Positions 9,794 through 19,400 of a stretch of DNA of 64,000 nucleotides are shown in pieces. Below the pieces are notes generated by a model. The model saw nothing but the letters and a program-made list of their open reading frames with translations. It was not told the origin of the DNA and did no database searches. The first letter of the stretch is position 1. Each line of letters starts with the position of its first letter. The stretch comes from an uncultured Roseovarius sp. (GTDB lineage Bacteria; Pseudomonadota; Alphaproteobacteria; Rhodobacterales; Rhodobacteraceae): assembly GCA_951812895.1 (NCBI GenBank), contig OX638333.1:2398001-2462000 (forward strand). The letters run 5' to 3'. Position numbers and translations under genes: made by a program.

Positions 9794-10831
9794 TCATGCC
9801 GTACCCTCCACCATTTCCGGACGGAATTCAGTGCCATCTGCCCACATGCGGTGTAGCAAAACAGCCAGTTTACGTGCGACGGCGACGACAGCGCGACGTC
9901 TGCCTTTGGTCCGCATCAGGCGCGTCCCCCAGGTTTTGATCTGTGACCCGGCCATCGTGCGCATGAGCAGTGCATTTGCCGCCGCGTATAAAGTTGCGCG
10001 AACGTCTCTGTCACCCGCCTTTGATATTCGGCCGGGATTGTCATGTTCACCCGACTGGAAACGGCGCGGTGTCAGCCCAAAATGTGCGGCCACCGTGCGG
10101 GATCGCTTGAAGCGGTCAGGATCATCGACAGCCGCCTTGAAGGTCAGCGCTGCGATCGGCCCGACACCCGGCACAGTCATCATCCGCATGCAGACCTCAT
10201 CGTGACTTGCAGCGCGTTTGACGCGCCGGTCCAGTTCCAGGAAGTGCTGATACAGAACAAGGCGTGCATCTAGCAGCGGAAGCATAGCATGTGCCAGAAC
10301 ATCATCCATCTCGATCATCGGGCGGACAACACCGTCAAAGCTGCCATGCTTCACGGTCTTGGGCAGGCGGATGCCGAAGATTTTCAGCAACCCGCGAACT
10401 TCATTGGCCAGATCAATCGTTTTGTTAAGTAGGGCTTTACGGGTGCTGAGCAATGCACGATAGCCATGGGCCTTCCGGCTCTTCATGTGCACAGGGCTGA
10501 ACCATCCGGTGCGCAGGATCTGCGCAATTCCTCGGGCGTCATTCTTGTCGGTCTTGTTGCGCATCGCAGACAGCGCCGCATTCACCTGACGCGCTTCCAT
10601 GCACACGACGTCGAAGCCCTCATTGGTCAAGCCAAAGAAAAGGTGCTGGCTCATCGTGCCCGCCTCGAAGCCAACTCGCTCAATCGGATAAGCAAAATCC
10701 GTCAAGCACTCCGCAATGTCGCCAACCTCGCACAGCAGATCGCGCTCAAGCATCACCTTGCCCTTGCTATCAACGATGCAAAGCGCGCACGACCGCAGCG
10801 ACACATCCAGTCCGGCAAAATATTCCATCAT
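9794..10831 (-). CDS. IS110-family transposase (DEDD recombinase)
   Basis: 345 residues and intact. The N-terminal RuvC-like DEDD domain shows YFAGLDVS, FEAGTMSQ and KTDKNDARGIAQILRTGWF. The C-terminal transposase-20 domain has VPGVGPIAALTF, a helix-hairpin-helix-like motif, and AHFGLTPRRFQSGE with the serine region typical of the family. It cuts and inserts the circular element and, in characterised members, is guided by a bridge RNA from the element's non-coding end. The layout fits the IS110 group proper. Confidence 0.95.
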   Translation of the reverse strand: MMEYFAGLDVSLRSCALCIVDSKGKVMLERDLLCEVGDIAECLTDFAYPIERVGFEAGTMSQHLFFGLTNEGFDVVCMEARQVNAALSAMRNKTDKNDARGIAQILRTGWFSPVHMKSRKAHGYRALLSTRKALLNKTIDLANEVRGLLKIFGIRLPKTVKHGSFDGVVRPMIEMDDVLAHAMLPLLDARLVLYQHFLELDRRVKRAASHDEVCMRMMTVPGVGPIAALTFKAAVDDPDRFKRSRTVAAHFGLTPRRFQSGEHDNPGRISKAGDRDVRATLYAAANALLMRTMAGSQIKTWGTRLMRTKGRRRAVVAVARKLAVLLHRMWADGTEFRPEMVEGTA

Positions 10832-10998: not shown

Positions 10999-12561
10999 TC
11001 AATTTTGATTGAGTTGTAGCCTCGCGAATTGTTCCATCGGCGCATCGACCTCTTTCATCAGTGCAACCATTTGGGACTTAAGGCGGTTCTCAATTTCCGG
11101 GTCCGTCAGGGCATTTGTCTGCCCAGCGTCGTCAATTGTATCCCACAGCATCGTGTCAAACTGTTTGTCCCGCGCAACCCAGGTGACATTCTCGATTTTC
11201 ATCGTTCTGGTCCCCTTTTGAAACGAAAACGGTTCGGCGACCTGAAGGTTAACAAAGTCCTCGACGGCAAAGGACGCGCGCATATGCGTGGGCATCAACG
11301 TGTATTGATAGAGCGGTTTGTTGTCGGGATTTTGCGGAGATCGCATATAGACGTAGCGGCCGTCGGTAATGTTTACATGCGCCCCGTGCATTCCAAAGAT
11401 CGCGGCCTCGCGAACGGGCGTGTCATCTTCAATGACCCCTGCCAAATCTTTGCCCGTCATGTCTTTGGTTGGTTCCAGGCCAAAGAAGTTCAGCAGTGTT
11501 GGTGCCAGATCAATTGACGGCTGCACAAGCGACTGCCGCCGTTCGCCCATTGCGCCCACCCTGGGATCCCAGATGAAAAACGGTGTATGGCTAATTTCCT
11601 GATACATGGGCATCGACATTTTGCCCCACCAGTCATGTTCGCCCAACAAAAAGCCGTGATCAGTCCAGACGATGAGCATAGTGTCATCCCAGAGGCCTTT
11701 TTCATCCATCATGTCCATCACCTTGCCAAGGTATTCGTCGCACATGCTGACAAGGGCAGCATATTCCACGCGCAGGTGCTTGTTCTCTTCGGGATGATCC
11801 GTCGTGCGCGCATACATGGGCCAGTCGAAAAACGGGCCATCATAATTGTCATGGTGCTCTTTGTAGAGCTCCTTGTAGCGGTCGAGCGTATAGAACGGCT
11901 CATGCGGATCGAAGGTTTCGATATGCAACATCCAATCGTCATGGTCCGCATTCTTGTCGATAAAATCGAGGCCGGCTTTGAAGGTCCGCGCCTGCGGCTG
12001 ATTTTCCTCAACATTCATAAACCCGCGATTGACCCAATCCTGCCGGGTCAGATAGCGCAGGCGCTGCATCGAGGCTTCGCTTTCCTCGGGGAATGCCCTG
12101 AGATAGGCGTCAAACACCTCTGGTTCCGAATAGATGCCGTTTTTTCCAAAAGCCCCTTTGGGAATCTCAGGTTCATTCAGGTCGCCGATCCATGGATCGC
12201 CTTCCTGCCCGCGCCAGTACTGCCAGGTGGTGTAATGGGTGTGGTAGTTCAGCCCGCCGTCTTCAAAGTAATGGTTGTGGTCGGTGGTCAGATGGGTGTG
12301 CACGCCCGCATCGCTGAGCATCTTGGGCATGCTGTCATCGAAGGGCTCCAGTGGCCCCCAGCTGCGGTGCAGAAAGTTGGGCCGCCCGGTGTGCCAGTCG
12401 CGCCGCGCGGGCATACAAGGCATCGAACAGACGTACGATGTATCAAACGTCACGGCCCGGTCGGACAGGCGTTTGAAATTCGGTGCGTGGACCCAATCAT
12501 TTCCATAGCTTGGCAGGAAGTGCCGGCTGAGCGTGTCAAACATGACAACGATGGCCTTCAT
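10999..12561 (-). CDS. type I (formylglycine) sulfatase
   Basis: 520 residues of the alkaline-phosphatase-like sulfatase family. The maturation motif CMPARRDWHTGR places the formylglycine precursor at Cys49. Metal and substrate residues are visible in MFDTLS near the N-terminus and in WTDHGFLLGEHDWWGK in the middle, with HTPFFIWDP after it. No signal peptide is seen, so the enzyme is probably cytoplasmic. It should hydrolyse a sulfate ester; the substrate is unknown. Its ATG overlaps the stop of the maturation-enzyme gene by ATGA, tying the two together. Confidence 0.93.
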   Translation of the reverse strand: MKAIVVMFDTLSRHFLPSYGNDWVHAPNFKRLSDRAVTFDTSYVCSMPCMPARRDWHTGRPNFLHRSWGPLEPFDDSMPKMLSDAGVHTHLTTDHNHYFEDGGLNYHTHYTTWQYWRGQEGDPWIGDLNEPEIPKGAFGKNGIYSEPEVFDAYLRAFPEESEASMQRLRYLTRQDWVNRGFMNVEENQPQARTFKAGLDFIDKNADHDDWMLHIETFDPHEPFYTLDRYKELYKEHHDNYDGPFFDWPMYARTTDHPEENKHLRVEYAALVSMCDEYLGKVMDMMDEKGLWDDTMLIVWTDHGFLLGEHDWWGKMSMPMYQEISHTPFFIWDPRVGAMGERRQSLVQPSIDLAPTLLNFFGLEPTKDMTGKDLAGVIEDDTPVREAAIFGMHGAHVNITDGRYVYMRSPQNPDNKPLYQYTLMPTHMRASFAVEDFVNLQVAEPFSFQKGTRTMKIENVTWVARDKQFDTMLWDTIDDAGQTNALTDPEIENRLKSQMVALMKEVDAPMEQFARLQLNQN

Positions 12562-13424
12562 AGCGTGGTCTCCTTGGTCTCAAACGCAACACGGAACCCG
12601 GTATGCCCGGTTGTCATGTCAGGGGCAGATGCGCTGCGAGCCGAGAGCCGGTATCGTGCGCAATATGATTTGTGACATAGATGCGAGCCGCCTTTCAGCA
12701 CCTTGCCTTCGCCGATTGGCGGGCCCTTTGGATCAGTCGTAATACCGCTTAAGGCGTGAAAATCGCGGCTGAACCAATCAGCCGTCCATTCCCAAGTGTT
12801 GCCGACCATGTTGTAAAAACCCAGGCGATTGGGCTGGAAGGTCGTAACCGGGCAGGTAAAGGCAAATCCATCAGCGGCGGTGTTTTCATGAGGAAAATTG
12901 CCGCGCCAGATATTGCAGCGAAATCTGTCCGTCGGCGAGGCATCCCCCCAAGGGAAGCGTTTCTGATCCAGCCCCCCGCGTCCTGCGCACTCCCATTCTG
13001 CCTCTGTTGGCAGCCGACCGCCCACCCAATTGGCAAAGGCCATCGCATCTTGCCAGGACACATGGACAACGGGGTGTTGCTCTAACCCTGTCAAATCCGA
13101 ACCCGGTCCTGCAGGTGTGCGCCAGCTGGCACCCTCCGCTTTGCGCCACCACGAGCCCGGGCGCTCTAAACTTGCTCCTTTTGGATCAAATACAAAGGAC
13201 CAGCCAAATTTCTCGGCATTGGTTACATATCCGGTCGCATCGACAAATCTGTGGAAGGAGATGTTGGTGGTCGCGCAAGCTGCCAATTTGAACTCCGACA
13301 GGGCTATGATGCGCACCGGCTCTTCGCCGTCGTCCTTTTGACAGCTGCGCTTGGCACCCATCCGAAAACGCCAGGGATTCAGGGAGATGCCCTCGAGTAA
13401 ATCTGCATGATCTGGATTGGACAT
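12558..13424 (-). CDS. formylglycine-generating enzyme (SUMF1 family)
   Basis: 288 residues from the ATG at 13424. The FGE-sulfatase domain is complete: HPVVHVSWQDAMAFANWVGGRLPTEAEWE, GNTWEWTADWF, and the copper/active-site pair in GGSHLCHKSYCARYR near the C-terminus, then TGHTGFRVA. It converts the cysteine of the CxPxR motif of sulfatases to formylglycine using O2. The upstream extension of the frame to 13586 has no family residues. It is followed immediately by its presumed client sulfatase and preceded 70 bp away by a LysR gene on the same strand. Confidence 0.93.
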   Translation of the reverse strand: MSNPDHADLLEGISLNPWRFRMGAKRSCQKDDGEEPVRIIALSEFKLAACATTNISFHRFVDATGYVTNAEKFGWSFVFDPKGASLERPGSWWRKAEGASWRTPAGPGSDLTGLEQHPVVHVSWQDAMAFANWVGGRLPTEAEWECAGRGGLDQKRFPWGDASPTDRFRCNIWRGNFPHENTAADGFAFTCPVTTFQPNRLGFYNMVGNTWEWTADWFSRDFHALSGITTDPKGPPIGEGKVLKGGSHLCHKSYCARYRLSARSASAPDMTTGHTGFRVAFETKETTL

Positions 13425-13494
13425 GAGAATAGTGTAAACAGACCAAGCCCATTTCCAAATCTCAGAAATTCTCAGGCTTTTCCTGCACTCAAAG

Positions 13495-14415
13495 TCATAT
13501 GGCGGGATCCGTAAGCAGGAAATCTGCCAACGTTCTTTCGACCTCTCCGAGGGGCGCATGCCGCGGCAGACCCAGGAAATATCCAAAACCGGTGGTCATG
13601 ACATTGCGGGTAAGTTCCACCAACGCGCCGCTGTCCAGATGAGGCTTGATCAAGGCGCGGCTACCCAAGATAACACCATCCCCCCGTAATGCGGTATCAA
13701 CCGCCATCATATAGGTCGGGGTTATCACCTTTGGGGACGGGGGAACTACATTCGGCGCGTTATGCGCAAACCAATCGCGCAAGGTAACGCTGTGCACGCC
13801 GGATCGGCTGTAGTCATATAGATCCAGCAAGGACACATCGTGGGGCGGCAAATCCGCAGGTTCGGTTTCACACCCTGCTGACGTAAGAAATCCCGGTGCC
13901 ACAACCGGAACCAATTCTTCTGATAGCAAGGGGGTTAATGACCAATTCGGATGGTAGCCTCTGGAATATATGATTGCCAGTTTGCTCTCGGCTCGGGCCA
14001 GTTCGCTCAGGTTGTCTGTGGTTGTCAGGCGAACCGATACCTCGGGGTAGCGGTCATTGAAACGGCGAAGCCGCGCAGACAACCATAAATGAGAGACCGC
14101 GGCAGTTGCTGCAATGGACACCGTATTGGTCGCAGCAGGCATTGTGAGGTCGTCCAACTCCACACCAAGATATTCTAACGAGGCTTGCATACGCAAAAAC
14201 AACCGTTCGCCTTTGATGGTCAGGGATAGCCGCCGCCCGTTTCGATGAAACAACGCAATCCCCAACATGCCTTCGAGTTGTTTTATGCGTCGGCTGACTG
14301 CGGCCTGCGTAACTGACAATTCAGACGCAGCCGCTGAGAAACTCATCAATCTGGCCGCACATTCGAACACGCGTAATGCGTCAAGTGAGACCAAATCAAT
14401 CAAGCGTCGTTTCAT
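13495..14415 (-). CDS. LysR-family transcriptional regulator
   Basis: 306 residues. The winged helix-turn-helix lies at about 10-65 (LDALRVFECAARLMSFSAAASELSVTQAAVSRRIKQLEGMLG spans it), followed by a substrate-binding effector domain. The GcvA-like start LVSLDALRVFE is common among regulators of catabolic genes. It is the first gene of a minus-strand group with the FGE and sulfatase, so it likely regulates that cassette, although LysR genes are more often divergent from their targets. About 200 bp of upstream DNA (14416-14614) should hold its promoter. Confidence 0.92.
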   Translation of the reverse strand: MKRRLIDLVSLDALRVFECAARLMSFSAAASELSVTQAAVSRRIKQLEGMLGIALFHRNGRRLSLTIKGERLFLRMQASLEYLGVELDDLTMPAATNTVSIAATAAVSHLWLSARLRRFNDRYPEVSVRLTTTDNLSELARAESKLAIIYSRGYHPNWSLTPLLSEELVPVVAPGFLTSAGCETEPADLPPHDVSLLDLYDYSRSGVHSVTLRDWFAHNAPNVVPPSPKVITPTYMMAVDTALRGDGVILGSRALIKPHLDSGALVELTRNVMTTGFGYFLGLPRHAPLGEVERTLADFLLTDPAI

Positions 14416-16560: not shown

Positions 16561-17715
16561 ATGAATCTGCAAAAGTATTCAAGGAAAAGATGGGTTGTTC
16601 CGGCGCTTGCCGGGCTGCTGATCACAGCGGGGTCCGGGGCATCTTACGCTCAGGAGGCCGAGGCGCCTGCCGCCGAGCCAAAAAACGAAATTACGTTCAC
16701 GTCCTGGACCGGGCCCTATATGCGCAGCCAGATGCTGGGCTTTGTTCGACCGTTTGAAAAAGAAAACAGAACCCGTGTTCATGTCGCCCATTACAACGGT
16801 GGTATCTCGGAAATTCGGGATCAGGTGGAATCGGCCAACGTTGTTTGGGATGTCGTTGATCTGACCCAGGCAGATTCACTGCGTGCCTGCGAAGAGGGGC
16901 TGCTCGAAGACCTGTCAGACATTGAGCTTCCTAACGGTTCTGATGGCTCGCCATTTCGCGAAGATTTTGTCGAGGGTGCGCTAAACGATTGTGGGGTTGG
17001 TGTGATCGTCTGGGCGACTGCCTTTGCTTACAGTAACTCGGCTTTTGACGGCGACGCACCCAGCAGCATCAGCGATTTCTTTGACGTCGAGGCCTATCCA
17101 GGCCCACGCGCTATCCGCAATGATCCGACAGTGATTATGGAATGGGCGCTGATGGCAGATGGCGTTGCCCGCGATGATGTCTACCCGACGTTGGAAACGG
17201 CGGAAGGTGTCGAACGCGCGCTTGAAAAGATGAATGCCATCAAACCGGGGCTGCTTCTTTGGGAATCTGGCCGCCAGCCGGTACGCATCCTGAATTCGGG
17301 CGAGGCGACGATGTCGATGATCTGGGCCACTACCGGGGCAACCGCTTCGAAAGAAGATGGCGCAGATTTCACAGTCAACATGGACGGCCGCGTGATCGAG
17401 ATGGACCTGTTCGGTATCCCCAAAGGCAGCCGATACAAGGACGAGGCGATCGAGTTCATCAGCTATGCCAGCAGCACTTTGTCACTGGCAAACATGGTTG
17501 GTTTCCTGCCCAATGGTCCAACCCGTAAATCTTCGGTGAAGATGCTGACAGGCGACATTCTCAAGCAGATTCCAAATGGTCCTGCCTACGAAGAAAATGC
17601 ATCCATCATGTCCGATGCCAAATGGTGGGCCGCAAACCATGCGCGGCTTGAAGAGGCATTCCAGGCGTGGCTGACAGCCGGGGCCCGTCAGGGCGCATCC
17701 GGAACAACCCGCTAG
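16561..17715 (+). CDS. periplasmic substrate-binding protein, PotD-like, paired with a BCCT carrier
   Basis: 384 residues from ATG 16561 (GGGAG at 16549-16553). A signal peptide ends about residue 30 (SGASYAQ). The mature protein resembles spermidine/putrescine-type ABC binding proteins: EITFTSWTGPYMRSQML, WDVVDLTQADSLRACEEGLLE, and the hinge and C-lobe (AYPGPRAIRNDPTVIMEWAL, FGIPKGSRYKDEAIEFISY). No ABC permease or ATPase gene follows; instead a BCCT secondary carrier starts 31 bp downstream. That arrangement suggests it delivers a cationic or quaternary-amine-like ligand to, or senses it for, the BCCT protein. This link is inference. Confidence 0.85.
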   Translation: MNLQKYSRKRWVVPALAGLLITAGSGASYAQEAEAPAAEPKNEITFTSWTGPYMRSQMLGFVRPFEKENRTRVHVAHYNGGISEIRDQVESANVVWDVVDLTQADSLRACEEGLLEDLSDIELPNGSDGSPFREDFVEGALNDCGVGVIVWATAFAYSNSAFDGDAPSSISDFFDVEAYPGPRAIRNDPTVIMEWALMADGVARDDVYPTLETAEGVERALEKMNAIKPGLLLWESGRQPVRILNSGEATMSMIWATTGATASKEDGADFTVNMDGRVIEMDLFGIPKGSRYKDEAIEFISYASSTLSLANMVGFLPNGPTRKSSVKMLTGDILKQIPNGPAYEENASIMSDAKWWAANHARLEEAFQAWLTAGARQGASGTTR

Positions 17716-17746
17716 ACCGGAAACGAGGACAGAAAGGTAATAAAAA

Positions 17747-19348
17747 ATGAGTAATGAATCGACAAATCGTCCTGACAATCTGGTCGCTAGTTCCGGGTTG
17801 TTCAAGGGTATGAACCCGCTGATGGGCATCGCCTCGATGGTGATGATCCTCGGCTTTGTTTTCTACACCGTTTCAGATGTCGAAGCATCTGCAGCCGTCT
17901 TTGCCAAGGGCAAGGACTTTATCATCGGCACGATGGATTGGTTTTACGTGATCGTGGTCAATGTCGCGCTGTTCTTCGTGTTCTGGCTGCTGGTCAGTCG
18001 GTTCGGCGATGTCAAACTTGGCAAACCTGACGACGAACCAGATTTCTCGACCTTTTCGTGGATCTGTATGCTGTTCAGTGCGGGGCTCGGTTCGGGCCTG
18101 ATTTATTGGGGCGTCGCAGAGCCGATGTACCACATTCAAGGTAGTCCGTTCATGGAACAGGCCGGTGCCGAAGCGGGCAGCGTTGATGCGGCTGTTAAGG
18201 CGGTAACAGTGACCAACTTCCACTGGGGTTTCCATGGTTGGGGGCTTTATGTTCTGGTCGGTCTCAGCCTTGCGTATTTCTCATATCGCAAGGACTTGCC
18301 ACTGACATTGCGTACGGCACTCTATCCGATCCTCAAGGAACGGATCTATGGCCCTTGGGGGCATCTGGTTGACCTGATTGGTGTTTTTGGCACGATCTTC
18401 GGTCTGGCCACGTCTCTTGGCCTCGGCGTGACACCGATTGCCGCGGGTCTGGAAAATCTGGGCTGGATGGAAAACACCCAAACCAACCAGCTTATTCTGG
18501 TTGCGTTGATCACAATCGCCGGTACGGCTTCGGCCGCTTCGGGTGTGGGCAAAGGCGTGCGGATCCTATCGGAATGCAATGTTATGGCCTCTTTGGCCCT
18601 CCTTATATTGTTCCTGGTTCTGGCGCCTACCGCCTTTGTGCTGGGCATTATGATTTCAGGTCTGGGTGATTATCTCTGGAATGTCATCCCGATGGGTTTC
18701 TGGATCAATGGCGAGCCTGAGAACCAATGGCAGAGCTGGTGGACCATCTTCTATTGGGGTTGGTGGATTGCTTGGTGCCCATTCGTAGGTCTGTTCATTG
18801 CCCGCGTGTCCAAGGGCCGCACAATCCGGCAGTTCTGCTTCTGCGTGCTGCTGATCCCAACTTCGGTCGTGATGATCTGGATGGGTATCTTCGGTGGCGC
18901 GGCGGCTGGTGTAGATCTGTTCTACAACGCAGGCGTGGTGGATGCGGTGAACAACGATTACGCCTCTGGCGTCTTTGCGACAATGGCCGGTTTTGGCTAT
19001 TCCTGGATCGTTTATCCAATGACCGTTCTGACCACCATTCTGCTGATATCGTGGTTTGTGACATCGTCAGACTCCGGCACCTTGGTGATGTGCACAATGT
19101 TGTCGATGGGTGATGAAAACCCACCGGTCAAATTCCGCATCTTCTGGGGGATCACTGCAGGTGTGGTTGCCGGCGTCCTGATGCTGGCAGGTGGGCTGAG
19201 CGCCCTGCAAACCGCATCAATCGTTGCAGGTCTGCCGATTGCTGTGATCCTGCTGTTGATGACCTATGGAATGGTCAAGGCACTCCATGAGGATCACCCA
19301 CAACCGGATGTCGAAGACAAGTTCGACCTTGAATTCCTGAACCGCTAA
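17747..19348 (+). CDS. BCCT-family transporter (betaine/choline/carnitine type)
   Basis: 533 residues with about 12 membrane segments. The family core is clear: GLGSGLIYWGVAEPMYH, FHWGFHGWGLY, and the signature WWTIFYWGWWIAWCPFVGLF about residue 330, then RVSKGRTIRQF. BCCT proteins import quaternary ammonium or sulfonium compounds with Na+ or H+, or by antiport. In a DMSP-using marine bacterium, betaine, choline or DMSP are plausible substrates. The gene is 31 bp downstream of a periplasmic binding protein and ends at a strong terminator, so the two form a two-gene operon. Confidence 0.95.
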   Translation: MSNESTNRPDNLVASSGLFKGMNPLMGIASMVMILGFVFYTVSDVEASAAVFAKGKDFIIGTMDWFYVIVVNVALFFVFWLLVSRFGDVKLGKPDDEPDFSTFSWICMLFSAGLGSGLIYWGVAEPMYHIQGSPFMEQAGAEAGSVDAAVKAVTVTNFHWGFHGWGLYVLVGLSLAYFSYRKDLPLTLRTALYPILKERIYGPWGHLVDLIGVFGTIFGLATSLGLGVTPIAAGLENLGWMENTQTNQLILVALITIAGTASAASGVGKGVRILSECNVMASLALLILFLVLAPTAFVLGIMISGLGDYLWNVIPMGFWINGEPENQWQSWWTIFYWGWWIAWCPFVGLFIARVSKGRTIRQFCFCVLLIPTSVVMIWMGIFGGAAAGVDLFYNAGVVDAVNNDYASGVFATMAGFGYSWIVYPMTVLTTILLISWFVTSSDSGTLVMCTMLSMGDENPPVKFRIFWGITAGVVAGVLMLAGGLSALQTASIVAGLPIAVILLLMTYGMVKALHEDHPQPDVEDKFDLEFLNR

Positions 19349-19372: not shown

Positions 19373-19400
19373 AAAGGGGGCGGTTTCGCCCCCTTTATTT
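19373..19400 (+). terminator. rho-independent terminator after the BCCT gene
   Basis: AAAGGGGGCG, loop GTTT, CGCCCCCTTT, then ATTTG. A ten-base perfect stem 25 bp after the BCCT stop codon. Confidence 0.85.

Follow-up and report, generated by a model that had tools for sequence, protein, structure and literature searches.

Before TAXI-GltS, TRAP and TT were the sole secondary-carrier families known to work with a soluble substrate-binding protein (SBP), according to the available part of Jaques et al. 2025 (PMC12344293). In the same part of that paper, SBP-dependent secondary uptake is proposed for TAXI-GltS of Bordetella (BP0403/gltS), and some feature of the elevator mechanism is suggested to be a possible requirement, which further classes will allow to be tested (PMC12344293). 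Among the papers listed in a search of the open-access literature with BCCT and binding-protein terms, no title or beginning of an abstract described an SBP-BCCT system. BCCT carriers have the LeuT fold and work by a rocking mechanism, and to our knowledge BetT, TmaT, BetP, DddT and CaiT have all been described as single-component carriers. In the available part of a paper on DddT, neither 'binding protein' nor 'SBP' is mentioned (PMC13270143). Here we describe a locus in which an SBP, from a lineage with ABC-serving relatives, stands beside a BCCT carrier. The arrangement recurs in dozens of bacteria and points to a new type of nutrient uptake system made of two parts.

The pair lies in the window, that is, the whole stretch of 64,000 nucleotides that was analysed, and the host genome is one contig of 4.54 Mb. 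Both genes are co-directional with the SBP gene first (Table 1). The initial annotation had described a BCCT carrier 31 bp after a binding protein, followed by a terminator, and the coordinates, the Pfam profiles and a 10-pair hairpin bear this out. It had also seen no ABC permease or ATPase with the pair; in agreement, subfamily ATPase and permease homologues were absent from the 64-kb window at E 1e-8. No DctQM or TctAB membrane part was present beside the SBP, the BCCT being the sole membrane gene of the unit, and neither occurred among the 25 commonest flank families. For this count the nearest flank proteins were taken, 125 in number and each 150 aa or longer; they matched 231 families, of which the 25 commonest were considered. 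Neighbours of the pair vary between genomes, the commonest Pfam families reaching just 4 of the 125 proteins, and the pair as a piece of a larger conserved operon was rejected because the neighbours differ among loci. The SBP-BCCT unit is self-contained.

Table 1. Features of the SBP-BCCT unit, in positions of the window
Feature	Position	Strand	Basis
SBP, GABA/opine/PotD group, 384 aa	16561..17715	+	SBP_bac_8 profile; nearest PDB 8jv1/MotA/Atu4243; AF2
SBP C-terminal tail codons, residues 376-384 RQGASGTTR	17686..17712	+	motif and low pLDDT
Spacer, 31 bp, with purine-rich ribosome-binding-like stretch	17716..17746	+	sequence
BCCT secondary carrier, 533 aa, aromatic box and Na2-type motif intact	17747..19348	+	Pfam BCCT
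Terminator-like hairpin closing the two-gene unit	19373..19396	+	10-pair stem, 7 G-C pairs

A tie to the upstream sulfatase/FGE/LysR cluster was not supported, two opposite-strand genes intervening. In that cluster (10999-13586, minus strand) an FGE-like gene shares its end with a sulfatase gene, whose product has a CxPxR-type motif. The sulfatase scored 104.6 bits, far below the choline-sulfatase cut-off of 433, and the adjoining LysR regulator reached 185 bits against a cut-off of 325 for the choline-sulfate regulator. The window also holds an IS110-family RNA-guided transposase gene (9794-10831, minus strand; 237.5 bits, cut-off 140).

The window SBP matched Pfam SBP_bac_8 with 110.7 bits (cut-off 27), and its N-terminus, judged by eye, is signal-like. 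Its nearest solved relatives are the GABA/opine binders SAR11 PotD with GABA (8jv1), MotA and Atu4243. The AF2 model had a pLDDT of 90.7, and Foldseek gave TM scores of 0.82/0.87 for the SBP against 8jv1. The classical PotD equivalog scored 31 bits against a cut-off of 582. The earlier label 'PotD-like' is appropriate at family level, but the nearest solved structures are GABA/opine binders and the classical PotD match is weaker. The closest paralogue in the host genome has 32% identity and is encoded together with an ATPase and two permeases. The carrier matched Pfam BCCT (PF02028) with 564.9 bits (cut-off 27) over profile positions 3-485 of 485, and its nearest solved structure by sequence is TmaT 8zw8.

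Relatives of the SBP were collected by scanning contigs with one genome per species, and the best 80 of 322 relatives were taken as loci L063-L142. Among the 72 nearest of these best 80 of 322 (L063-L134), a BCCT adjoined the SBP in 71 of 71 informative loci; L129, cut inside the SBP, was uninformative, and the broken L109 is counted among the 71. In L090 and L092 just the first BCCT residues precede the contig end, and in L095, L099, L111, L124, L126 and L134 the BCCT is partly visible. Three arrangements were distinguished among the 71 loci: type A, with the SBP followed by the BCCT as in the window (53 loci), type B, with the SBP followed by a distant BCCT (6 loci), and type C, with the BCCT followed by the SBP (12 loci). 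Type C SBPs are about 41-45% identical to the type A SBP of the window. The gap between the genes measured 27-39 bp in 43 of 51 type A pairs. The next eight relatives (L135-L142, 38-40% identical) were without BCCT, and all eight have an ATPase and at least one permease. No subfamily permease match was found in the window or in the 72 SBP loci L063-L134. ATPase matches of 28-39% occurred in eight of these loci, one being a ProV-type gene in L108.

In sampled genomes of the same genus and family, all 11 other SBP orthologues (68-79% identical) adjoin a BCCT. For the 12 remaining matches (34-43% identical), 10 came with subfamily ABC permeases; among the same 12, one (L010/L040) is of type B with a distant BCCT adjoining, and one (L016/L046) has neither partner. 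Altogether the pair was found in Alpha- and Gammaproteobacteria, in three BCCT lineages and in two gene orders. The pairing is thus not one strain's accident, as the initial annotation had left to be checked, and the genetic coupling of SBP and carrier is conserved in 71 of 71 informative loci, as would be expected of an SBP-dependent secondary transporter. Two genomes hold two types each (L092 and L132; L121 and L128), so that the types may differ in substrate.

Several loci showed features of their own. Open reading frames of 971 and 977 aa in L118 and L131 were considered as SBP-BCCT fusions and rejected, since SBP and BCCT lie in different frames; no fusion was present among the 80 loci. 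In a Paracoccaceae MAG (L109:5001-6581) the pair is broken: the end of the SBP and the larger part of the BCCT are absent or lie in another frame, and pieces of both can still be recognised. The type B pairs of L127, L130, L132 and L133 have a small protein downstream (3395-3832 in L127), close in three of them; these proteins cluster together, and the one scanned belongs to the HSP20 family. Second, distant SBPs of the same superfamily, tail-less, lie within a few kb of the type C pairs in L119 (8091-9161) and L131 (142-1158), the former adjoining a CLC-type chloride channel gene.

The pairing was also followed from the carrier side, with flanks of 1.5 kb, shorter at contig ends. Among the matches listed, all 14 type A BCCTs, the window included, had the SBP, and 65 of 66 other BCCT loci (28/29 and 37/37) were without such an SBP in their flanks; the exception, L147, is of type C. 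As a control, 113 flank proteins from 51 of the 65 SBP-less loci were searched, and no SBP family was among the 25 commonest of 137 Pfam families. For type C carriers found in this way (62-89% identical to a paired one), 14 of 15 lacked such an SBP in the flanks, from which we conclude that this carrier type probably works alone; these 14 are 62-85% identical to a paired carrier. That some type C carriers have the SBP next door and others do not is an argument against its being strictly required in this type. One of the 14 unpaired carriers (L047:2-9438, genome G092) has, at a distance of about 3.5 kb, a complete subfamily ABC operon that includes a tail-less SBP of its own.

In the SBP tree, the 38 BCCT-adjacent SBPs chosen for it formed one clade (support 100/98) and 17 SBPs from ABC-permease loci a separate one (99/94). 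The SBP of L016 and the second, distant SBPs of L119 and L131 fell outside both; a clade test that also named the latter two gave p 0.20 and rejects nothing. In the BCCT tree the partners stand in three places: type A, a paired subclade (Cp) within the unpaired type C carriers, and type B on the CaiT side, the exact neighbour of B being unsure because of the long branches of CaiT and BetP. A single clade of A, B and Cp was rejected in a 36-row tree with an AU p of 6e-54, as was the grouping of A with Cp in the same tree (p 3e-6). The initial annotation had proposed a survey for co-phylogeny. Within type A, the distance matrices of SBP and BCCT from 48 loci correlated with r 0.89, against 0.41 in the best of 999 permutations and with no species-tree control, as expected for genes travelling together.

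The BCCT-paired SBPs run past the last helix, whereas the ABC-linked SBPs stop at this helix. Type A SBPs end in G-[TSG]-x-R in 65 of 66 rows, in which some genomes are counted twice and the exception is the broken L109. Type C SBPs end in G-[STA]-A-R (13/13) and type B SBPs in Arg-Phe (7/7). The tail was absent from all 22 SBP rows of ABC-gene loci (18/18 and a further 4/4) and also from the SBP of L016, which has neither partner nearby. In the AF2 model of the window SBP, residues 378-384 have a pLDDT below 50 and are disordered. All 53 type A rows compared have the terminal Arg, which is encoded by five different codons, and this constancy with varying synonymous codons indicates that selection acts on the protein. 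Since types A and C have opposite gene orders, the motif is not a by-product of the start signal of a downstream gene. The similar terminal motif in type A and type C SBPs, missing from the ABC-linked ones, suggests a specific contact with the partner, and we regard the tail as a candidate docking or gating peptide.

On the carrier, W160, W165, W339, W340, T439 and S440 were the same in all 61 type A rows, which include some genomes twice, and position 168 was Tyr in 58 and Phe in 3 of these. We take the aromatic substrate box (TM4, TM8) and the TM10 Thr-Ser of the Na2 site to have the same roles as in BetP. Where BetP has its second Na1 threonine, the window BCCT has Leu. Judged from these residues, the substrate pocket is intact. 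The C-terminus is short, with about 20 residues, as estimated by eye, following the last membrane helix. In BetT, osmoregulation has been associated with an elongated C-terminus and nutrient uptake with the lack of one, according to the available part of the source (PMC4744692).

Contact surfaces were sought on the periplasmic side of the carrier. The ratio of periplasmic to membrane rates was about 1.8 for type A BCCTs, 1.7 for unpaired type C, 2.2 for paired type C and 2.3 for other unpaired carriers, and overall the periplasmic loops of type A, relative to the membrane segments, were not more conserved than those of unpaired type C. With loop limits set by eye, EL3-EL5 were relatively more conserved in type A and EL1-EL2 were not, a mixed picture that gives no clear signal. 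Comparison of paired and unpaired type C carriers for SBP-adapted residues gave no convincing convergent set. A joint AF2 model of SBP and BCCT was of low confidence (pTM 0.51), with 160-177 C-terminal residues misplaced in the type A and B carrier rows of its alignment.

Flanking genes gave few hints to the substrate, namely betIBA in L108 and GbdR in L116, and little in the other contexts examined. The order in L108 (Arenicellales) is betI, SBP-BCCT, betB, betA, each bet protein being above an NCBIfam cut-off, and a proVW/choW-type ABC system lies on the other side of betI. This belongs to another ABC family and has its own ProX-like SBP fragment. In L116 the GbdR regulator was just over its cut-off (480.6 versus 480). 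L107 and L108 belong to one Arenicellales MAG with two type A pairs on different contigs; one of these pairs is part of the bet operon, and a LysR gene adjoins the other. The substrate is most likely choline or a betaine; carnitine or gamma-butyrobetaine, which is trimethylated GABA, would fit the GABA-type SBP.

In summary, we consider it probable, with some reserve, that SBP and BCCT work together as a single secondary uptake system, assisted by the SBP and independent of ATP, for a solute of the quaternary-ammonium type. The SBP would capture a small cationic or zwitterionic quaternary ammonium or betaine solute in the periplasm, with choline, betaine, carnitine/gamma-butyrobetaine and DMSP as candidates. 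The loaded SBP would then hand the solute to the BCCT, docking perhaps via its tail, and the BCCT would import it by ion symport without ATP. For physical docking, substrate hand-over, substrate identity and ion coupling alike, this is what we infer. A more far-reaching reading, which we hold tentatively and with more doubt than confidence, is that an SBP lineage that once served ABC transporters gained a docking or gating peptide (G-[TS]-x-R-like in types A and C, an Arg-Phe end in type B) and joined three BCCT lineages, giving the first SBP-dependent transporter of the LeuT fold, that is, of a non-elevator type.

The initial annotation had suggested binding-protein-dependent secondary uptake, and the recurrent pairing speaks for this reading; the reading that it had named as refuting, in which the SBP works with an ABC system elsewhere, was weakened and still has to be weighed, given that 25 of 27 chosen genomes hold a subfamily permease. 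According to this reading the SBP serves an ABC core encoded elsewhere, and the BCCT provides a second, low-affinity way in for the same solute, in parallel. There is a precedent in Pseudomonas, where the Cbc ABC transporter is reportedly shared by several SBPs. Consistent with it, a subfamily ABC permease of at least 50% identity was present in 25 of 27 chosen pair-bearing genomes, and the proVW/choW-type ABC system is nearby in L108, although the latter is of another family and comes with its own ProX-like SBP fragment. Against it, the best subfamily permeases were 33% identical in G368 (one contig, 99% complete) and 32% in G294 (93%), and the SBPs of ABC loci form a separate, tail-less clade. 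More distant PotBC-type permeases are present in both genomes. The ABC partner is weakened as an explanation, and we judge it unlikely.

The SBP might also be a periplasmic scavenger or buffer that raises the local substrate concentration, with the BCCT moving free substrate alone and no docking taking place. Unpaired close BCCT relatives with the same pocket and periplasmic loops that overall show no excess of conservation are in line with this, but a single SBP clade tied to BCCTs of three lineages is not, nor is the terminal motif that type C SBPs keep in similar form and that their ABC-linked relatives lack, and we regard such a role as rather unlikely. Finally, the C-terminal peptide, being conserved and disordered, would fit the role of a gating or plugging element, and the complete carrier pocket is compatible with an SBP that is a ligand sensor, gating or regulating the BCCT or feeding a chemoreceptor, and not a delivery protein. 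No histidine kinase or chemoreceptor was among the 25 commonest of the 231 families in the 125 nearest flank proteins, however, and this role appears unlikely.

Compared with known systems, the window carrier resembles BetT, TmaT, BetP, DddT and CaiT in being a full BCCT with the aromatic box and the Na2-type motif. Its SBP is homologous to, and has the same fold as, those of the ABC importers for GABA, opines and polyamines (MotA, Atu4243, SAR11 PotD, PotABCD), from which the pair differs by the missing adjacent ATPase and permease, the extra C-terminal tail and the BCCT partner. An SBP-assisted BCCT would add a choline/betaine-type uptake route in marine bacteria, and close BCCTs with and without an SBP offer a natural control. 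With TRAP systems (DctPQM/SiaPQM) the pair would share a periplasmic SBP that feeds secondary uptake, but SBP and membrane families both differ and a DctQ/M-type gene is missing. TAXI-GltS, as presented in the available part of PMC12344293, is similar in that the genes of an SBP and a secondary carrier are neighbours and a TRAP or ABC membrane part is missing. There, however, the SBP is a TAXI lipoprotein, GltS is modelled as elevator-type and natural fusions occur (PMC12344293), whereas the pair described here combines a PotD/GABA-group SBP with a BCCT carrier and no fusion among 80 loci. If the proposed system is real, an SBP working on a LeuT-fold carrier would contradict the suggested elevator requirement for cooperation between SBPs and carriers, and the SBP-BCCT system would be a test case for the question posed, in the part available, by the TAXI-GltS study (PMC12344293).
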